NCBI GenBank assembly: GCA_027039975.1 | Contig: JALWFE010000070.1 | Coordinates: 1 to 35,604, forward strand | Origin: Flavobacteriales bacterium | GTDB lineage: Bacteria; Bacteroidota; Bacteroidia; Flavobacteriales; Flavobacteriaceae | Reading direction: 5' to 3' | DNA: 35,604 nt | Part shown: piece after piece, positions 6,273-18,029 of the stretch | Position numbering within the stretch: position 1 is the stretch's first letter | Layout of the letters: each line of letters begins with the position of its first letter | Notes under the pieces: generated by a model | Told to the model about the DNA's origin: nothing | What the model saw: only the letters and a program-made list of their open reading frames with translations | Database searches by the model: none | Position numbers and translations under genes: made by a program

Positions 6273-6650
6273 ATGGCAGATTTAAAAGCATTAGCAGAAC
6301 AATTGGTTAACTTAACGGTAAAAGAAGTTAACGAATTAGCCGATATTATGAAAGAAGAATACGGCATTGAACCGGCAGCCGCAGCTGTTGCTGTCGCAGG
6401 TCCCGCAGGTGGCGGAGCCGAAGGAGGAGAAGAAGAAAAAACAGAATTTGACGTTATTCTCAAATCTCCGGGAGGTTCCAAATTGGCAGTTGTTAAATTG
6501 GTTAAAGAATTGACCGGTTTAGGACTTAAAGAAGCCAAAGCCGTTGTTGACAGTGCACCTGCTCCGGTAAAAGAAGGTGTTTCCAAAGACGAAGCCGAAG
6601 GTATCAAAAAATCTTTGGAAGAAGCCGGTGCAGAAGTAGAGCTCAAGTAG
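6273..6650 (+). CDS. rplL: 50S ribosomal protein L7/L12
   Basis: L7/L12 is the multicopy stalk protein that recruits translation GTPases. The product is 125 aa. The N-terminal dimerisation/L10-binding domain covers about 1-35. An Ala/Gly/Glu-rich hinge covers about 36-55. The C-terminal factor-binding domain contains [20 protein letters not shown] and the final GAEVELK. A very strong hairpin lies 21 bases after the stop, before rpoB. Confidence 0.97.
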
Positions 6651-6671
6651 TTCTAACATAGAATGATTTTT

Positions 6672-6712
6672 GGTTTAGGTCTTCCCGGTACGTGCCGGGA
6701 CAGACCTAAACC
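6672..6712 (+). promoter_or_regulatory. Long rplL-rpoB intergenic hairpin (attenuator or RNase site)
   Basis: GGTTTAGGTCT (6672-6682) pairs with AGACCTAAACC (6702-6712), and the stem continues with TCCCGG (6683-6688) against CCGGGA (6695-6700). The result is 17 base pairs with a single bulged C at 6701 and a TACGTG loop. The 3' flank is only ATTTTG, a weak T-tract. In E. coli the same gene junction carries an attenuator and an RNase III site, so a similar role is plausible here. Confidence 0.6.
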
Positions 6713-6788
6713 ATTTTGCATATAATTATATGTTTTAACTTTATGTGCTGATTTTCAGCCGTATTTTTTAAATTTTTTTGATAACCTT

Positions 6789-6796
6789 TAATTTTG
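6789..6796 (+). promoter_or_regulatory. Possible -7 box before rpoB
   Basis: TAATTTTG fits TAnnTTTG and lies just 11 bases before the rpoB ATG, but no -33 TTG is at the right distance. An internal rpoB promoter with almost no leader is possible, though chance occurrence in AT-rich DNA is also likely. Confidence 0.3.
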
Positions 6797-6806
6797 TCTT
6801 ACCAAT

Positions 6807-9800
6807 ATGGCAAATAAAAACAAAGAACTACCCAAAACGGATGCCACTAACAGAATTAATTTTTCATCTGTTAAACATATCCCGGAATATCCCGATTTGT
6901 TGGCTATCCAATTAAAATCTTTTCAAGATTTTTTCCAGTTGGAAACCAAACCCGAAAACCGTAACAATGAGGGTTTATACAAAACATTTCAAGACAATTT
7001 TCCGGTTACCGATACACGTAATCAGTTTGAATTGTCATTCCTCGATTATTTTGTCGACCCGCCGCGTTATTCAATACGTGAATGTATTGAACGCGGTTTG
7101 ACTTACAGTGTTCCTCTCAAAGCCCGTTTAAAATTGGAATGTAATGACCCCGAACACGAAGAGTTTGAAACCGTGGTACAAGATGTTTATCTCGGTACCA
7201 TACCGTATATGACGCCACGAGGAACTTTTATTATCAACGGTGCCGAACGAGTTATCGTTTCCCAATTACACCGTTCACCCGGGGTGTTCTTTGGCCAATC
7301 GATGCATACCAACGGTACCAAATTATATTCGGCCAGAATCATCCCTTTTAAAGGTTCCTGGATTGAATTTGCTACCGATATCAACAATGTAATGTATGCT
7401 TACATCGATAGAAAAAAGAAATTACCGATAACAACTTTATTAAGGGCTATCGGTTATGAAAGGGATAAAGATATTTTGGAAATTTTTGATTTGGCTGATG
7501 AAGTGAAGGTCAGTAAAACCGGATTGAGAAAAGTTGTCGGTAGAAAGTTGGCCGCCCGTTTGCTTAAAACCTGGCACGAAGATTTTGTTGACGAAGAAAC
7601 GGGAGAAGTAGTAACAATCGAGCGTAACGAAATTATTTTGGACCGTGATACGGTTATTGAAAAAGAACATATTCAAGATATTTTGGATTCCGGTGCAAAA
7701 ACTATTTTGCTTCATAAAGAAGATATTTCCAAGTCTGATTATGCTATCATTTATCATACCTTACAAAAAGATTCTACCAATTCGGAAATTGAAGCGGTTG
7801 AATATATTTATAGATTATTGCGTAATGCCGACCCGCCGGATGCAGAAACGGCCCGGGGTATTATTGATAAATTATTCTTCTCAGACCAACGTTACAGTTT
7901 GGGTGAGGTAGGGCGTTACAGAATCAACAAAAAATTAGGCTTGGATATTCCTCATGATGTGCAAGTTTTAACACGTGAGGATATTATTACCATTACCAAA
8001 CAATTGATAGAGTTAATTAACTCTAAAACGGAAGTGGATGATATAGACCACTTATCAAACCGCCGTGTTAAGACGGTTGGTGAACAGTTATCGCAGCAAT
8101 TCGGTGTCGGTTTAGCCCGTATGGTTCGTACGATTAGAGAACGGATGAACGTGCGGGACAATGAAGTGTTTACACCTATTGATTTAATCAATGCCAAAAC
8201 ATTGTCGTCCGTTATCAAATCGTTTTTCGGTACCAATCAGTTGTCACAATTTATGGATCAAACCAATCCCTTGTCCGAAATCACACACAAACGCCGTTTG
8301 TCTGCTCTCGGACCGGGCGGTTTGACACGTGAACGGGCAGGATTTGAGGTGCGTGATGTTCATTATACGCATTACGGACGTATGTGTCCTATCGAAACAC
8401 CGGAAGGTCCGAATATCGGTTTGATTTCATCGTTGGCTGTTTTTGCCAAAATTAATGATATGGGCTTTATCGAAACACCTTATCGTGAAGTTCATAACGG
8501 TAAAGTAGCTTATGACAAACCGATAAAATATTTAACAGCCGAAGAAGAAGAAGGTAAGAAAATAGCACAAGCCGAAACACCGACGGATGAGGAAGGCAAT
8601 ATTATTCCCGAACATTTGGTAGCTCGTGAAGAAGGTGATTTCCCGGTTGTTGACAGAGAAGAAATCGATTATATGGACGTGGCTCCTAATCAAATCGCTT
8701 CCATTTCGGCTTCATTAATTCCGTTTTTGGAACACAATGACGCCAACCGTGCATTGATGGGGTCCAATATGATGCGGCAAGCCGTACCTTTATTAACACC
8801 TGAAGCACCTATCGTTGGAACAGGAATGGAAAGAAAGTTGGTAAAAGATTCCCGTATATTGATAAACGCGGAAGGTGACGGAGTGGTCACTTATGTAGAT
8901 GCTAAAAAAATCGTTATCAAATATGATAGAACCGAGGAAGAACGCTTGGTGAGTTTTGATGAAGATGAGAAGGTCTATAATTTGATTAAATTTAGAAAAA
9001 CCAACCAAAATACAACTATCAATTTAACGCCGATAGTCAAAAAAGGTGATCGTGTCACCAACGGACAGGTATTGACCGAAGGTTATGCTACCGATGACGG
9101 CGAGTTGGCACTTGGACGGAATTTACGGGTGGCATTTATGCCTTGGAACGGTTACAATTTTGAGGACGCTATCGTTATATCGGAAGATGTTGTCAGAAAA
9201 GATTATTTTACATCGTTGCATATAGTCGAACATTCATTGGAAGTGCGTGATACGAAATTAGGACAAGAAGAATTGACCAATGACATACCTAATGTCAGTG
9301 AAGAAGCGACCAAGGATTTGGATGAAAACGGTATGATACGCATAGGTGCCGAAGTAAAACCCGGTGATATTTTAATAGGTAAAGTGACCCCGAAAGGAGA
9401 ATCGGACCCGACACCGGAAGAAAAACTTTTAAGGGCTATTTTCGGTGATAAAGCGGGTGATGTCAAAGATGCTTCTTTAAAAGCATCACCTTCGCTGCAA
9501 GGTGTGGTTATCGATAAAAAATTATTTACCCGTTCTATAAAAGACCGTCGCAAAACGGCTCAGGACAAAGTAAAAATAGAAGAACTCGAAAAGGATTTTG
9601 AAGCCAAATACGAAGCTTTGCGTCAAAAATTGATAGAAAAACTATTTGTATTGGTTAACGGAAAAACAGCGCAAGGCGTAAAAAATGATTTGGGCAAAGA
9701 TATTTTCCCGAAAGGTAAGAAATTTACTCTGAAAATGTTAAATAGTGTTCAGGATTTTGAACATTTAACACAAGGTACCTGGACAACGGATAAACACCTT

Positions 9801-10676
9801 AACGAATTGATATCCGAATTGATTAACAATTATAAAATCCGGGTCAATCAATTGAAAGGTAACTTGCGACGGGAGAAATTTGCTATCAGTGTCGGTGACG
9901 AATTGCCACCCGGTATTTTGAAATTGGCAAAAGTTTTCATTGTTCAAAAACGTAAATTGAAAGTCGGTGATAAAATGGCGGGGCGACATGGTAACAAAGG
10001 TATTGTTGCCAAAATAGTGCGTCGTGAAGATATGCCGTTTATGGAAGACGGCACGCCGGTTGATATCGTTTTGAATCCGCTCGGTGTACCGTCCCGTATG
10101 AATATCGGTCAGATTTACGAAACGGTATTAGGTTGGATAGGATTAAAAACCGGCAAAAAATTTGCTACACCGATTTTTGACGGTGCTTCGGAAGATGATA
10201 TTATCAAATTGACCGAAGAAGCCGGATTGCCTGAGTTTGGAGAAACTTATTTGTATGACGGCGGTACGGGTGAGCGTTTTGACCAACCGGCAACCGTTGG
10301 TGTTATCTACATGTTGAAACTCGGACACATGATTGACGATAAGATGCATGCTCGTTCTATCGGTCCGTATTCATTGATTACACAACAACCTTTAGGTGGT
10401 AAAGCATTATTCGGAGGTCAACGTCTCGGAGAAATGGAAGTTTGGGCACTGGAAGCTTACGGTGCTTCACATACTTTGCAAGAGATGTTAACCATCAAAT
10501 CCGATGATGTTATGGGACGTACCAGAGCTTATGAAGCTATCGTAAAAGGTGAAACCATGCCCGAATCAGGTATTCCGGAATCATTTAATGTATTGATGCA
10601 CGAGCTTAGAGGTTTGGGACTGGATATCAGATTGGAGGATAAAGAAGGCAATGATGTTTTGGAAAAGAAAAATTAA
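6807..10676 (+). CDS. rpoB: DNA-directed RNA polymerase subunit beta
   Basis: The beta subunit forms one pincer of RNA polymerase and part of the catalytic centre. The product is 1289 aa. The rifampicin-region signature LSQFMDQ begins near residue 479 and continues to SALGPGGL, keeping the Asp, His and Ser that correspond to the usual resistance sites, so the sequence looks rifampicin-sensitive. The conserved [12 protein letters not shown] and [13 protein letters not shown] follow. Near the C-terminus are [12 protein letters not shown] and [19 protein letters not shown] basic/acidic insert around 910-1000 lies in a position where Bacteroidota beta subunits vary. It is followed 33 bases later by rpoC. 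Confidence 0.98.
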
Positions 10677-10709: not shown

Positions 10710-13700
10710 ATGGCTAAAAAAAAGAAAAAATATACAACCATTAAATTTGATAGAATTTCGATTGCGTTATCTTCACCGGAGCGTATCAAAAAAGCTTCCC
10801 GTGGTGAAGTTTTAAAGCCTGAAACTATCAATTATAGAACGCATAAACCCGAAAGAGACGGTTTGTTTTGCGAACGGATTTTCGGACCTGTCAAAGATTA
10901 TGAATGTGCTTGTGGAAAATATAAAAGAATCAGATATAAAGGGATTGTTTGTGATAGGTGTGGTGTTGAAGTAACCGAGAAAAAAGTCAGAAGGGAGCGC
11001 GTTGGTCATATCGAATTGGTCGTGCCGGTAGTACATATATGGTATTTCCGTTCGTTGCCGAATAAAATCGGTTATTTGCTCGGATTACCGACTAAGAAAT
11101 TGGAGATGATTGTATATTATGAGCGCTATGTGGTGATTAATCCCGGTCCGGCAGTCGATGCTGAAGGTAATCCGCTTCAAAAAATGCAATTTTTGACCGA
11201 AGAGGAATATCAGGAAGTATTGGAAAGATTGCCGGCTGATAACGAATATTTGGAAAACAACGACCCTAATAAATTCGTTGCCAAAATGGGTGGCGAAGCC
11301 ATAAGGGATTTATTAGCTTCAATAGATTTGGATGCCTTGTCTTACGAACTGCGTCACAAAGCCAGCCATGAGACATCGAAGCAACGAAAAACGGAAGCGC
11401 TTAAACGCTTACAAGTTGTAGAAGCTTTTCGAAAAGCCAACCAAAGACGTCCTAACAAACCGGAATGGATGGTGATGAATATCATACCTGTTATTCCTCC
11501 CGAATTGCGGCCATTAGTGCCTTTGGACGGCGGCCGTTTTGCCACATCGGATTTGAATGATTTATACCGCCGGGTAATTATCCGTAACAACCGTTTAAAA
11601 CGTTTGATGGATATCAAAGCACCGGAAGTTATTCTGCGTAACGAAAAACGGATGTTGCAAGAAGCTGTCGATTCATTGTTTGACAATACCCGTAAATCAT
11701 CGGCAGTTAAGACCGAGTCAAATCGTCCGTTGAAATCTTTATCCGATTCGTTGAAAGGAAAACAAGGTCGTTTCCGCCAAAACTTGCTGGGTAAACGGGT
11801 CGATTATTCCGCCCGTTCGGTGATTGTTGTCGGTCCCGATTTGAAATTGTATGAAGCAGGTATCCCGAAAGATATGGCGGCTGAACTATATAAACCTTTC
11901 ATTATCAGAAAATTGTTAGAAAGAGGTGTTGTAAAAACCGTTAAATCTGCCAAAAAAATCATTGACCGTAAAGAGCCGATTGTTTGGGATATTTTGGAAA
12001 ATGTTCTGAAAGGACATCCGATATTACTCAACCGTGCACCGACTTTGCACCGCTTGGGTATTCAAGCATTCCAACCTAAATTGATTGAAGGTAAAGCCAT
12101 TCGTTTGCATCCTTTGGTTTGTACGGCCTTTAATGCGGATTTTGACGGTGACCAAATGGCGGTTCATTTACCTTTGGGACCGCAAGCTATATTGGAATCT
12201 CAACTGTTAATGTTGGCTTCTCAAAACATTTTGAATCCGGCTAACGGTTCACCGATTACGGTACCCTCACAAGATATGGTTTTGGGATTGTATTATATTA
12301 CCAAACAACGAAAAGGTGCCCGTGGTGAAGGTATGACTTTTTATTCACCTGAAGAAGTAAAAATAGCTTTGAACGAAGGAAAAATAGATATTCATGCAGG
12401 TATCAAAGTACAAATTACCGATTATGATGAGGAAGGAAAAGCTTTTGAACATATTATCGAAACGACCGTTGGACGTGTGTTATTCAATGAAGTAAAACCT
12501 GATGGCGTGCCGTTTATCAATAAAGTTTTGACCAAAGGTTCGTTAAGAGGTATTATTTCTACTATTTTAAAACGAACTGATATTCCTACCACAGGGGCGT
12601 TTTTAGATGCCATTAAGCAAATGGGATATCATTATGCTTTCAAAGGCGGATTGTCTTTCGGTTTGAGCAACATTATGGTACCGGAAGAGAAGAAAAGCAT
12701 AATTGCCAAAGCACAGGAAGAAGTGGATGAAATCAAATATCAGTATGCTACCGGTCATATTTCGCAAAAAGAACGTTACAACAAAACGGTTGACGTTTGG
12801 ACAAGTGCCAACGCAGAATTGACACAAATTTTAATGGATAGAATAAGCAATGATGCAGAAGGATTTAACTCGGTTTATATGATGTTGGATTCAGGAGCAA
12901 GGGGTTCCAGAGATCAGATTCGTCAATTAATAGGTATGCGTGGATTAATGGCAAAACCTAAAAAATCGACAGCCGGAGGCGGAGAAGTTATAGAAAATCC
13001 GATTATATCGAATTTTAAAGAAGGTTTGTCCATTCAAGAATATTTTATTTCTACACACGGTGCCCGTAAAGGTTTGGCCGATACGGCATTAAAAACGGCA
13101 GATGCAGGTTATTTGACCAGACGTCTGGTCGATGTATCGCAGGATGTTGTGGTAAGAGAAGAAGATTGTGGTACTTTGAGAGGAATTGAAGTAACCGCAT
13201 TGAAGAAAAATAATGAAATTGTAGAGACTCTGGGTGAACGTATTTTGGGACGTGTCGCTTTGGATGATATTTATGATCCGGAAACCAATGAATTAATATT
13301 GGCAGCCGGTGAAGAAATAACGGAAAAAATAGTCGAAAGAATAGAACAAACAACTATTGAATCGGTTGAGGTGCGTTCACCTTTAACTTGTGAAGCCAAA
13401 CATGGAATTTGTGTAAAATGTTACGGACGTAATTTGGCTACCGGTGAGATGGTTGAGAAAGGGGAAGCTGTCGGTGTTATCGCCGCACAATCTATTGGAG
13501 AACCCGGTACACAGTTGACATTGAGAACTTTCCACCAAGGTGGGGTTGCCGGTAATGTTTCAGAGGTCTCCAATATTTTAGCCCGTTATGAAGGTATAGT
13601 TAAAATAGATGAATTGAAAACCGTAAGAGATGAAGAAGATAATGTTGATATCGTTATATCCAGAACATCCGAATTAAAAATCATCGGGGAAAAATCAGAA

Positions 13701-14990
13701 AAAGTATTAAGCACACATCAATTGCCTTACGGGTCAAAATTGTATAAAAAACCGGGAGATAAAGTTTTGAAGGGAGAAATTATTGCCGAATGGGATCCTT
13801 GGAACTCGGTTATTGTATCAGAATTTAGCGGAAAGGTAGTCTATGAAAATATTATTCAAGGTGTTACTTATCAACTTGAAATAGACGAACAAACCAACCG
13901 TGAGGAGAAAGTTATCACCGAAAGTAAGAACAAAAAATTGATACCGACACTTAAAATTGTTGATAACAAAGGAGAAGTCTTACGTTCTTACAACTTGCCG
14001 TTTGGTGCTCGTATCAATGTTGAAGATGGCAAGAAAATAAAGAAAGGAACCATTCTGGTAAAAATTCCTCGAAAATCGATAAAAGCCGGTGATATTACGG
14101 GTGGTTTGCCGCGTGTTACGGAATTGTTTGAAGCCCGTAATCCGTCCAATCCGGCAGTTGTATCGGAAATAGACGGTGTTGTTTCGTTCGGAAAAATTAA
14201 ACGGGGTAACAGGGAAATCATTGTAACGGCTAAAACAGGTGATGTTAAAAAATATTTGATTAAATTATCCAATCAAATATTGGTACAAGAAAATGATTTT
14301 ATCCGTGCCGGCACTCCGTTATCTGATGGTGCTATCACACCGAATGATATCTTGAAGATTAAAGGACCTTCGGCGGTTCAACAATACTTGGTGAACGAAG
14401 TTCAGGAAGTTTACCGTTTGCAAGGTGTAAAAATTAATGACAAGCATTTTGAAGTGGTTGTCAGACAGATGATGCAGAAAGTAATGATTGAAGATTCGGG
14501 TGATACCACTTTCTTGCCGGGTGAATTGGTTCATAAATTTGATTTTATTGAAGAAAATGACCGTATTTTATCGATGAAAGTGGTAGAAGATCCGGGAGAT
14601 TCCGAAAACTTTAAAGCCGGTCAATTGGTCAGTCCGAGACAGTTACGTGAAGAAAATTCCGTTTTGAGACGGCAAGATAAAAAATTGGTCGTTACGCGTG
14701 ATGTTATTCCTGCAAAAGCATCGCCGGTATTGCAAGGTATTACCAAAGCATCCTTACAGACCAAATCCTTTATTTCAGCCGCTTCTTTCCAAGAAACCAC
14801 CAAAGTATTGAACGAAGCTGCCATCAGAGCCAAAGTCGATTATTTGGAAGGTTTGAAAGAAAACGTAATTGTTGGACGTAAGATTCCGGCAGGAACCGGA
14901 TTGAAAGAGTATGAAAATCTTGCTGTATCTCAAAAAGAAGATTACGAAAATATGATCATTGATAAAATACAAGACAATATGTTAGACTAA
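10710..14990 (+). CDS. rpoC: DNA-directed RNA polymerase subunit beta'
   Basis: The beta' subunit carries the catalytic magnesium site. The product is 1426 aa. The N-terminal zinc ribbon has CACG and CDRCG. The active-site loop NADFDGDQ starts at residue 475 with Asp 477, 479 and 481. The trigger-loop region and the bridge helix motif GARGSRDQI follow. A second cysteine cluster ([19 protein letters not shown]) precedes [18 protein letters not shown]. The C-terminal third contains beta-sandwich-rich repeats around the jaw. It is co-directional with rpoB and a DUF3467 gene 12 bases downstream. Confidence 0.98.
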
Positions 14991-15002
14991 AAAATATTAA
15001 TT

Positions 15003-15314
15003 ATGAGCGATCAAAAACAACAACAAAAAATAAATATAGAATTGCCTGAAGAGGTAGCCGATGGTATTTATGCCAATTTGGCTGTTATCAATCATTCGGC
15101 ATCCGAGTTTATTATTGATTTTATCAAAATTATGCCGGGTGTTCCGAAAGCCAAAGTAAAATCACGTATTATTTTAACGCCACAACACGCCAAGCGTTTG
15201 GTTATGGCTTTAAATGATAACGTGAAGCGTTTTGAAAATGCGCATGGTACCATCAAAGATTATGGTAAAGCCGGTATTCCGCCTATTAATTTCGGACGGG
15301 GTAGCGAGGCATAA
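15003..15314 (+). CDS. DUF3467 family protein
   Basis: This small soluble protein of 103 aa matches, by recognition, the DUF3467 family common in Bacteroidota. Features seen are an acidic-hydrophobic opening strand (INIELPEEVADGIYANLAVI), the segment SASEFIIDFIKIMPG, a basic KAKVKSRIILTPQHAKRL, and a helix ending in FENAHGTIKDYG. No enzyme motif, signal peptide or membrane helix is present. It starts 12 bases after rpoC and is followed by a strong terminator, so it is the last gene of the RNA polymerase operon. The setting suggests a role linked to transcription or ribosome supply, but this is inference from position only. Confidence 0.85.
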   Translation: MSDQKQQQKINIELPEEVADGIYANLAVINHSASEFIIDFIKIMPGVPKAKVKSRIILTPQHAKRLVMALNDNVKRFENAHGTIKDYGKAGIPPINFGRGSEA

Positions 15315-15340
15315 ATTTATATTAAAGTTTTTTAAAAAAA

Positions 15341-15371
15341 AACCGCTTGATTTTTTCGAGCGGTTTTTTTT
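15341..15371 (+). terminator. Terminator of the rpoBC operon
   Basis: AACCGCTTGA (15341-15350) pairs with TCGAGCGGTT (15356-15365), with one wobble pair and a five-T loop, then a run of T to 15371. It ends the operon after the DUF3467 gene. Confidence 0.9.
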
Positions 15372-17971: not shown

Positions 17972-18029
17972 CAGACCTACTGGATTTTTTTGGTTAGACC
18001 TACCAGGTTTTGTAAACCCAGTAGGTCTG
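17972..18029. repeat. Three-copy AGACCTAC repeat forming alternative hairpins between convergent genes
   Basis: CAGACCTACTGG (17972-17983) has a perfect inverted copy CCAGTAGGTCTG (18018-18029). A third, direct copy AGACCTACCAGG (17996-18007) lies between them and can also pair with the inverted arm, with two mismatches, to give a tighter hairpin. A seven-T run (17984-17990) falls inside. The region probably terminates pheT and accC and looks like a palindromic repeat element. Confidence 0.6.

Follow-up and report, generated by a model that had tools for sequence, protein, structure and literature searches.

A conserved hairpin between rplL and rpoB of Flavobacteriales is a candidate attenuator of the RNA polymerase genes

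The gap between rplL and rpoB in a Flavobacteriales genome carries a long hairpin, here called H1, which is best read as a candidate attenuator without an Rfam match and with a sequence unrelated to that of the E. coli attenuator. Together with its tail, H1 probably acts as a weak intrinsic terminator inside the rpl-rpoBC transcription unit, as judged from sequence comparison. Unequal output of stalk proteins and RNA polymerase from one transcription unit has been worked out mainly in E. coli. For Bacteroidia, H1 provides a candidate element for such control at the junction where E. coli has its attenuator; it lies at a near-fixed distance from the rplL stop codon and probably acts as a leaky stop signal, setting the amount of polymerase relative to ribosomes. 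It also offers a small target for mutation and for tuning how much RNA polymerase is made in Bacteroidota, a phylum that departs from most bacteria in its promoters and translation starts (accessible text of PMC9723704).

Genomic context and structure of the hairpin

The window, that is the whole stretch of 35,604 nucleotides that was analysed, is contig C70 of an incomplete assembly (2.16 Mb in 140 contigs). The closest named relative of its RpoB is that of a Flavobacteriales MAG (94%), followed at 76-81% by those of genera such as Flavobacterium, Lutibacter, Capnocytophaga, and Maribacter, which we take to be Flavobacteriaceae. The gene order is rplJ-rplL-rpoB and onwards, all on the forward strand. 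According to translation, rplL (ribosomal protein L7/L12) covers positions 6273-6650, with a TAG stop codon at 6648-6650; used as a query, it retrieves the rplL genes adjoining rpoB in relatives. The downstream rpoB gene (RNA polymerase beta, 6807-10676, by translation) is followed by a 1426-residue ORF (10710-14990) and by a small DUF3467-like ORF (15003-15314), both on the forward strand, which we take, mainly from their place, to be rpoC and the DUF3467 gene. Behind the rpoBC unit lies a canonical terminator, T8 (15335-15371, forward strand, d = +38.5 on the score introduced below), which served as a yardstick.

H1 spans positions 6671-6713 of the forward strand, starts 20 nt past the rplL stop codon and comprises 19 bp with one bulge, as read from sequence and fold. 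Its lower stem (12 bp), which is conserved in sequence, pairs TGGTTTAGGTCT (6671-6682) with AGACCTAAACCA (6702-6713). The upper stem (7 bp) pairs TCCCGGT (6683-6689) with GCCGGGA (6694-6700), the innermost pair being U-G, the loop is ACGT, and C6701 is bulged; upper stem and loop (6683-6700) form the variable part. An earlier note on this DNA had described a long rplL-rpoB hairpin of 17 bp with one bulge, which sequence and fold bear out, the count of 17 being obtained when the outermost T-A pair and the U-G pair are left off. The folding energy of positions 6640-6740 is -38.3 kcal/mol, far beyond that of 200 shuffled sequences (-17.0 +/- 2.8 kcal/mol; z = -7.5), none of which folds as well: H1 is a real hairpin. 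Positions 6672-6712 reach -29.7 kcal/mol, a stability proper to the hairpin of an intrinsic terminator, and a strong hairpin within the rplL-rpoB gap is likewise what an attenuator of the E. coli type possesses.

Conservation and covariation

The element is present in 12 of the 13 genomes of the genus, our own included; in the thirteenth (G010), the contig begins within rpoB. The genus sequences were retrieved via rpoB and not via the hairpin, and their alignment is free of anchoring bias. When the 12 intergenic regions are compared, variation affects 1 of the 24 lower-arm positions and 1 of the 12 in the tail (6714-6725), as against 14 of 19 at 6683-6701 and 20 of 21 at 6726-6746. Of the third codon positions, 75 of 100 vary in rplL, and 30 of 37 do so in rpoB. 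Lower arms and tail that stay nearly fixed amid variable flanks and third codon positions indicate that selection on the letters holds the lower stem of H1 in the genus.

At the level of the order, the regions before rpoB provided 167 loci in which rplL was found, from Flavobacteriales plus a few Bacteroidales and Saprospirales-type contigs; these are loci and not species, as named contigs and genomes overlap (L042 is L017, and L085 is L031). A lower stem of the GGUUUAG kind, with at most two mismatches, occurs in 144 of the 167 loci (141 distinct sequences), 124 of the 141 having an exact GGTTTAG; by these alignments, the order as a whole has conserved both the tail and the stem base GGUUUAG/CUAAACC. 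Covariation in related genomes, proposed earlier as a check, is found: in alignment A1 (56 sequences, hand-picked for diversity from the 141), 98.9% of the cells in the 10-bp lower stem are paired and 7 of the 10 pairs have changed on both sides, values reached by none of 500 shuffles. Seven of the 10 pairs covary again in A2 (51 sequences, also hand-picked, with 19 loci of other families added). Three lower-stem pairs never vary in A1 or A2, the invariance of the GG/CC pairs being partly by construction since the anchoring allowed at most two mismatches to GGTTTAG and favoured GG/CC.

Uniqueness and spread

The full H1 occurs once in its own incomplete assembly. Searched against 99 relatives, the covariance model R1 returns 70 matches at E up to 1e-6, all of them at most 400 nt upstream of rpoB and on the rpoB strand; at least 25 of the 70 come from loci inside the model and match by construction, which leaves the absence of strong matches elsewhere unaffected. 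Placement relative to rpoB covered 84 matches, down to E = 7.2e-4, with seven opposite-strand matches at the same sites left out. Five weak matches (E 1.7e-5 to 7e-4) are not placed at rpoB, the gene itself being unfound in G053 and G015, and 12 of the 99 relatives return no R1 match at E up to 1.

In the class, R1 matches at E up to 1e-3 in 35 of 295 genomes. All 30 class loci examined lie between rplL and rpoB; among the remaining five matches, three adjoin rpoB and two (G143 and G125, E about 3e-4) are on another contig than rpoB. An independent class set comprised 80 rpoB-upstream regions, taken from 95 class genomes with rpoB. G000, G182, G075, G150, G191, G136, G190, G149, and G210 were left out of it, their loci being already part of the analysis, and six of these (G150, G191, G136, G190, G210, and G149) match R1 or R2; G167, G196, G211, G153, G174, and G215 were left out as well. 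The class-wide model R2 matches 14 of the 80 regions at E up to 0.01, and the letters are therefore not class-wide, though a hairpin is. A phylum search with R2 reports matches in 38 of 296 genomes, including four of other classes. Neither rplL nor rpoB adjoins the best of the other-class matches (G539, L267), G656, G539, and G515 have rplL beside rpoB and a hairpin of other letters after rplL, and rplL was not found in G543, another R2 match of another class. Of note, the post-rplL hairpin of G539 (L380), AAGGGTTAGCGG...CCGCCTAACCCTT, is reminiscent of GGUUUAG/CUAAACC. Weak R2 matches occur elsewhere, e.g. in G218, G655, G182, and G107 (E 1.2e-5 to 8.5e-4). Some lineages are devoid of any matching hairpin at rplL-rpoB, and several small-genome lineages with normal gaps either lack H1 or carry other hairpins, e.g. 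family f6 (L207, L208, L210, and L211).

Beyond its letters, a structure behind rplL is frequent. The 80 nt after the rplL stop codon fold with z < -2 in 153 of 164 regions of the Flavobacteriales set, in 73 of 78 of the Bacteroidia sample (78 of the 80 class regions had rplL), and in 15 of 16 from other phyla, as against 3 of 162, 0 of 78, and 0 of 15 for the control, an 80-nt stretch that ends where rplL is estimated to start. Folding is strong after but not before rplL in all sets, and the hairpin behind rplL therefore looks like a widespread bacterial feature, the GGUUUAG letters looking like its lineage-specific form.

The distance between the rplL stop codon and the GG of H1 has a median of 22 nt and is 19-25 nt in 132 of 141 loci, with a CV of 0.13 versus 0.84 for the distance between H1 and rpoB. 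According to the accessible text of PMC4824070, the trailing ribosome in E. coli represses a terminator that comes shortly after a stop codon: at 17-18 bp the efficiency was about 0.8 or 0.12, varying with the sequence, and it was maximal beyond about 27-30. By analogy, the spacing of H1 falls in the adjustable zone of the E. coli stop-to-terminator distances, which may be relevant here. A palindrome acting at the DNA level was considered and rejected, as the variable arm spacing (hairpin lengths of 34-43 nt, 5th-95th percentile) argues against it.

Terminator-like anatomy

The d score, computed for whichever hairpin scores best within the 110 nt that follow rplL, is of the d'Aubenton-Carafa type and calibrated on E. 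coli. By this score, H1 of the window, with four U and then G, reaches d = +14, and 8 of the 10 genus rows listed have d > 0. The orthologues have a median d of -18, with 20 of 141 above 0 and 121 of 141 below the usual terminator threshold. The operon-end controls, taken from 20 genomes downstream of the DUF3467 gene (a 21st region was dropped for want of a DUF3467 match), have a median d of +27, with 17 of 20 above 0. The longest T-run is 4 in 106 of the 141 orthologues versus at least 6 in 14 of the 20 controls, and the H1 stem is roughly twice as long as the control stems; orthologue stems measure 12-21 bp. By its sequence, H1 looks like a terminator with a shortened U-tract, and a U-tract shorter than the canonical one suits partial termination.

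The tail and other elements of the intergenic region

The conserved tail TTTTGCATATAA (6714-6725, forward strand) is a U-tract of four followed by G-Y, as seen in the genus alignment and in the order-level consensus, (A/C)TTTTGCGTATATAA or, in RNA letters, (A/C)UUUUGYGUAUAUAA. It provides the 5' arm of H2, a candidate second hairpin GCATAT-AATT-ATATGT (6718-6733, forward strand) reported by the MFE fold of the whole intergenic region; an alternative partner for GCATATAA in the tail is TTATGTGC at 6741-6748. In many genomes, the tail GYGUAUA pairs with a downstream UAUACRC, and the tail pairs better with its own downstream sequence than with those of other genomes in 77 of 119 cases (p = 4e-7).

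A small inverted repeat further downstream, GCTGA-TTT-TCAGC (GCTGATTTTCAGC; 6747-6759, forward strand), is terminator-like and seen in the genus, where 5 of its 13 positions vary, once with both arms changed (GACTGATTTTCAGTC in G006). A second conserved stretch (6777-6806) directly precedes the rpoB ATG; 8 of its 30 positions vary in the genus, the consensus of 82 sequences is about TTTAATCAAAATTYYGTCCATWG-ATG, and it displays no clear promoter. Just before rpoB, positions 6789-6796 (forward strand) hold a possible -7 promoter box, TAATTTTG (TAnnTTTG), at the genus level only. In the promoter-box set (82 distinct sequences, no in-frame ATG being found in 57 of 144 and 5 being duplicates), the TAnnTTTG box is found before rpoB in 10 of the 82, as compared with 2.5 expected from shuffling; all 10 belong to the genus and have it at -18, and outside the genus none of the 82 sequences has it before rpoB. 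Across the window, 60 such boxes are counted versus 51 expected. A family-wide rpoB promoter is rejected on these counts.

Family f5 and small genomes

In the five genomes of family f5, which belong to one genus, about 0.7, 1.3, 5, 6, and 14 kb separate rplL from rpoB. A canonical terminator follows rplL in all five (d 28-56), and each of the five rpoB genes is preceded by a TAnnTTTG box, at 309-326 nt, and by a leader hairpin CTCTTTC...GAA(A)GGG, at 246-264 nt. The tails of these hairpins, e.g. ATTTCGTGTATATAG and CTTTGTTGTATATAG, resemble (A/C)TTTYGTGTATATAG. That a similar-tailed hairpin stays before rpoB and not behind rplL argues for a role in rpoB expression; tail and place would make it kin to H1, and its stem letters differ. 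Downstream of this leader hairpin, a 50-nt block (AAAATATTTTGCATTACGCTGTGAAAAGATATACCAGTGTTGCAGTTAGA) is identical in the five genomes (L175, L176, L178, L203, and L204), possibly a further leader element. In four genomes of 0.5-0.6 Mb (G097, G106, G114, and G142), the gap is 4-18 nt and holds no such hairpin.

Attenuation and its alternatives

If H1 attenuates, the RNA polymerase leaving rplL would form a hairpin of 16-19 bp followed by four U. A fraction of the polymerases would stop there, yielding an excess of transcripts ending after rplL, and the remaining ones would continue into rpoBC. Located some 22 nt past the rplL stop codon, H1 would be within reach of the ribosome finishing rplL, so that read-through may also depend on rplL translation. 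The conservation of the hairpin, the folding behind rplL, the U-tract anatomy, the fixed spacing, family f5, and the four small genomes speak for an attenuator, as do the lack of TAnnTTTG before rpoB outside the genus and the E. coli attenuator at the same place. Against it stand the length of the stem compared with the controls, the 121 of 141 orthologues below the d threshold, the differing stem letters of f5, and the lineages with normal gaps but without H1 or with other hairpins. The stem base is, moreover, nearly invariant, though a plain terminator needs no particular stem letters; plain termination leaves these constrained letters unexplained, and the conserved wording of stem base and tail is the remaining oddity.

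It is conceivable, though we hold it rather doubtful, that H1 is a sequence-specific protein site that makes attenuation regulated, e.g. by feedback on the level of RNA polymerase or stalk protein; a ribosomal protein, a polymerase subunit, NusA/NusG, or a Bacteroidota-specific factor might then, equally tentatively, be the binder. The lower arms and tail fit such a site, with 2 of 36 positions varying in the 12 genus genomes versus 75 of 100 third codon positions of rplL, as do the conserved tail itself, the three pairs invariant in 56 and 51 sequences (partly by construction), and the rplJ gene of the window, which is devoid of a long leader (22-nt gap to rplA). However, no known binding motif was recognised in H1, and the stem letters drift in other orders while the hairpin persists. 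The L10(L12)4 target contains a kink-turn and an unpaired UAA (accessible text of PMC4538822), whereas H1 is a straight stem with one bulge. An L10 leader or L10(L12)4 site was rejected for H1, a straight stem after rplL without an L10 leader match. Regulated binding and attenuation are compatible and can both be true, so the confidences given to them overlap.

Still more speculatively, the attenuator of Bacteroidia could itself be sequence-specific, a factor or the Bacteroidota RNA polymerase reading GGUUUAG/CUAAACC plus UUUUGYG and the ribosome about 22 nt upstream setting rpoBC read-through. If so, polymerase synthesis would be tied to translation of the ribosomal stalk protein.

RNA processing and stability are an unlikely explanation, in which an endonuclease would cut at or after H1, H1 would shield the rplJL mRNA against 3' exonucleases, H2 would cap that of rpoBC, and mRNA levels would become unequal without termination. 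The tandem hairpins with a U-rich joint are in its favour, as is the long stem, whose length is uniform (median 16 bp, with the middle half at 15-16). An RNase III site needs a duplex of about 20 bp or more, and the stems are short for it: among the 141, 3 have 20 bp or more and 5 have at most 13, and that of the window has 19 bp with a bulge. Moreover, the U-run after the stem is kept, and in f5 the hairpin precedes rpoB and a canonical terminator follows rplL, a poor fit to a protector of rplL mRNA. RNase III does act in the rplL-rpoB region of E. coli (accessible text of PMC2777011), which counts for processing; with these stem lengths its role at H1 is disfavoured.

Membership of H1 in a dispersed, REP-like family of palindromic repeats is highly improbable and was rejected: AGACCTA is enriched in the window (7 matches versus 1.4 expected) and a dispersed family AGACCTACYRGRTTT exists (with at most one mismatch allowed, 41 strand-places in the genome versus 1 for the reversed control), but this family reads AGACCTAC(C/T)(A/G)G and not AGACCTAAACC, and H1 has no second copy in its own genome, sits at one and the same locus in 12 of the 13 genomes of the genus and has 70 of 70 strong matches in relatives at rpoB. 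Occurrence at many unrelated intergenic sites, which the earlier note held would speak against its reading, is thus not what is seen. The recurrence of AGACCTA in the pheT-accC repeat, also noticed earlier, does hold, and its link to H1 is incidental, that repeat belonging to the separate AGACCTACYRGRTTT family. The pheT-accC repeat (17972-18029) contains three AGACCTAC(C/T)(A/G)G(A/G)TTT units. Elsewhere in the same genome, AGACCTA in inverted orientation forms the ends of two short A-rich elements, TAGGTCT...GAACATAATAA...AGACCTA (L010 and L011; C106:22459-22487 and C126:3442-3476), each of which overlaps a copy of the dispersed unit AGACCTATCAGGTTT.

Comparison with known systems

Attenuation, our preferred reading, has its closest counterpart in E. 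coli, where the rplL-rpoB attenuator decouples ribosomal proteins from polymerase subunits (accessible text of PMC4670729). It lies at the same junction as H1 and consists of a strong hairpin whose end lies 65 nt past the rplL stop codon. Both have a short U-tract and then GCG, the tails being CC-TTTTTGCG in E. coli, CC-ATTTTGCA in the window, and CC-ATTTTGCG in much of the order. In contrast, the E. coli stem is unrelated in sequence, its 319-nt gap holds several hairpins, and its attenuator has d = +28 by the same score, versus 14 in the window. The E. coli rplL terminator is also strong in a reporter (accessible text of PMC10971746), and, with its d score, this means that leakiness need not be general. 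The class-wide R2 matches neither the E. coli junction nor 17 loci of other phyla. Conversely, Rfam RF00630 (P26) matches the E. coli junction with 74.5 bits (L383:631-692, K-12, right after rplL) and is absent from the window at gathering and from positions 6560-6860 up to E = 10. RF00630, named "Pseudomonas sRNA P26", matches the E. coli stretch holding the attenuator, and P26 may not be a free sRNA. Of the analogy drawn in the earlier note, the attenuator half is supported by place and anatomy, as a conserved, covarying hairpin of unrelated sequence (by R2 and RF00630). The other half referred to the RNase III site of the E. coli rplL-rpoB region (PMC2777011) and is not supported, given stems of 12-21 bp (median 16) of which 3 of 141 reach 20 bp.

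No Rfam family matches the window at gathering, or positions 6560-6860 up to E = 10, where the highest score, 24.7 bits, falls short of the cut-off of 197. No rplL-rpoB motif of Bacteroidota is named in the accessible text of Eckert and Weinberg 2020 (PMC7247131) or of Weinberg 2010 (PMC2864571), and a literature search, mostly of freely accessible main texts, returned no report of the H1 element. Lacto-rpoB (RF01709) is, like H1, a conserved RNA, named for rpoB (PMC2864571); it differs in being assigned to Lactobacillales in the accessible table of that paper, and its identity with H1 is rejected as its model does not match in the window. The B. subtilis rplJL attenuator, bound by L10(L12)4, is likewise a terminator-based control, of rplJL, but it lies before rplJ and has a kink-turn, an antiterminator, and an anti-antiterminator (accessible text of PMC4538822), whereas H1 is straight and lies after rplL. 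The same logic is encountered in Methanococcus maripaludis, whose internal terminators between ribosomal-protein and RNA-polymerase genes lower polymerase subunits relative to ribosomal proteins by partial termination, albeit in archaeal operons, with other genes and an archaeal termination factor (accessible text of PMC10450193).
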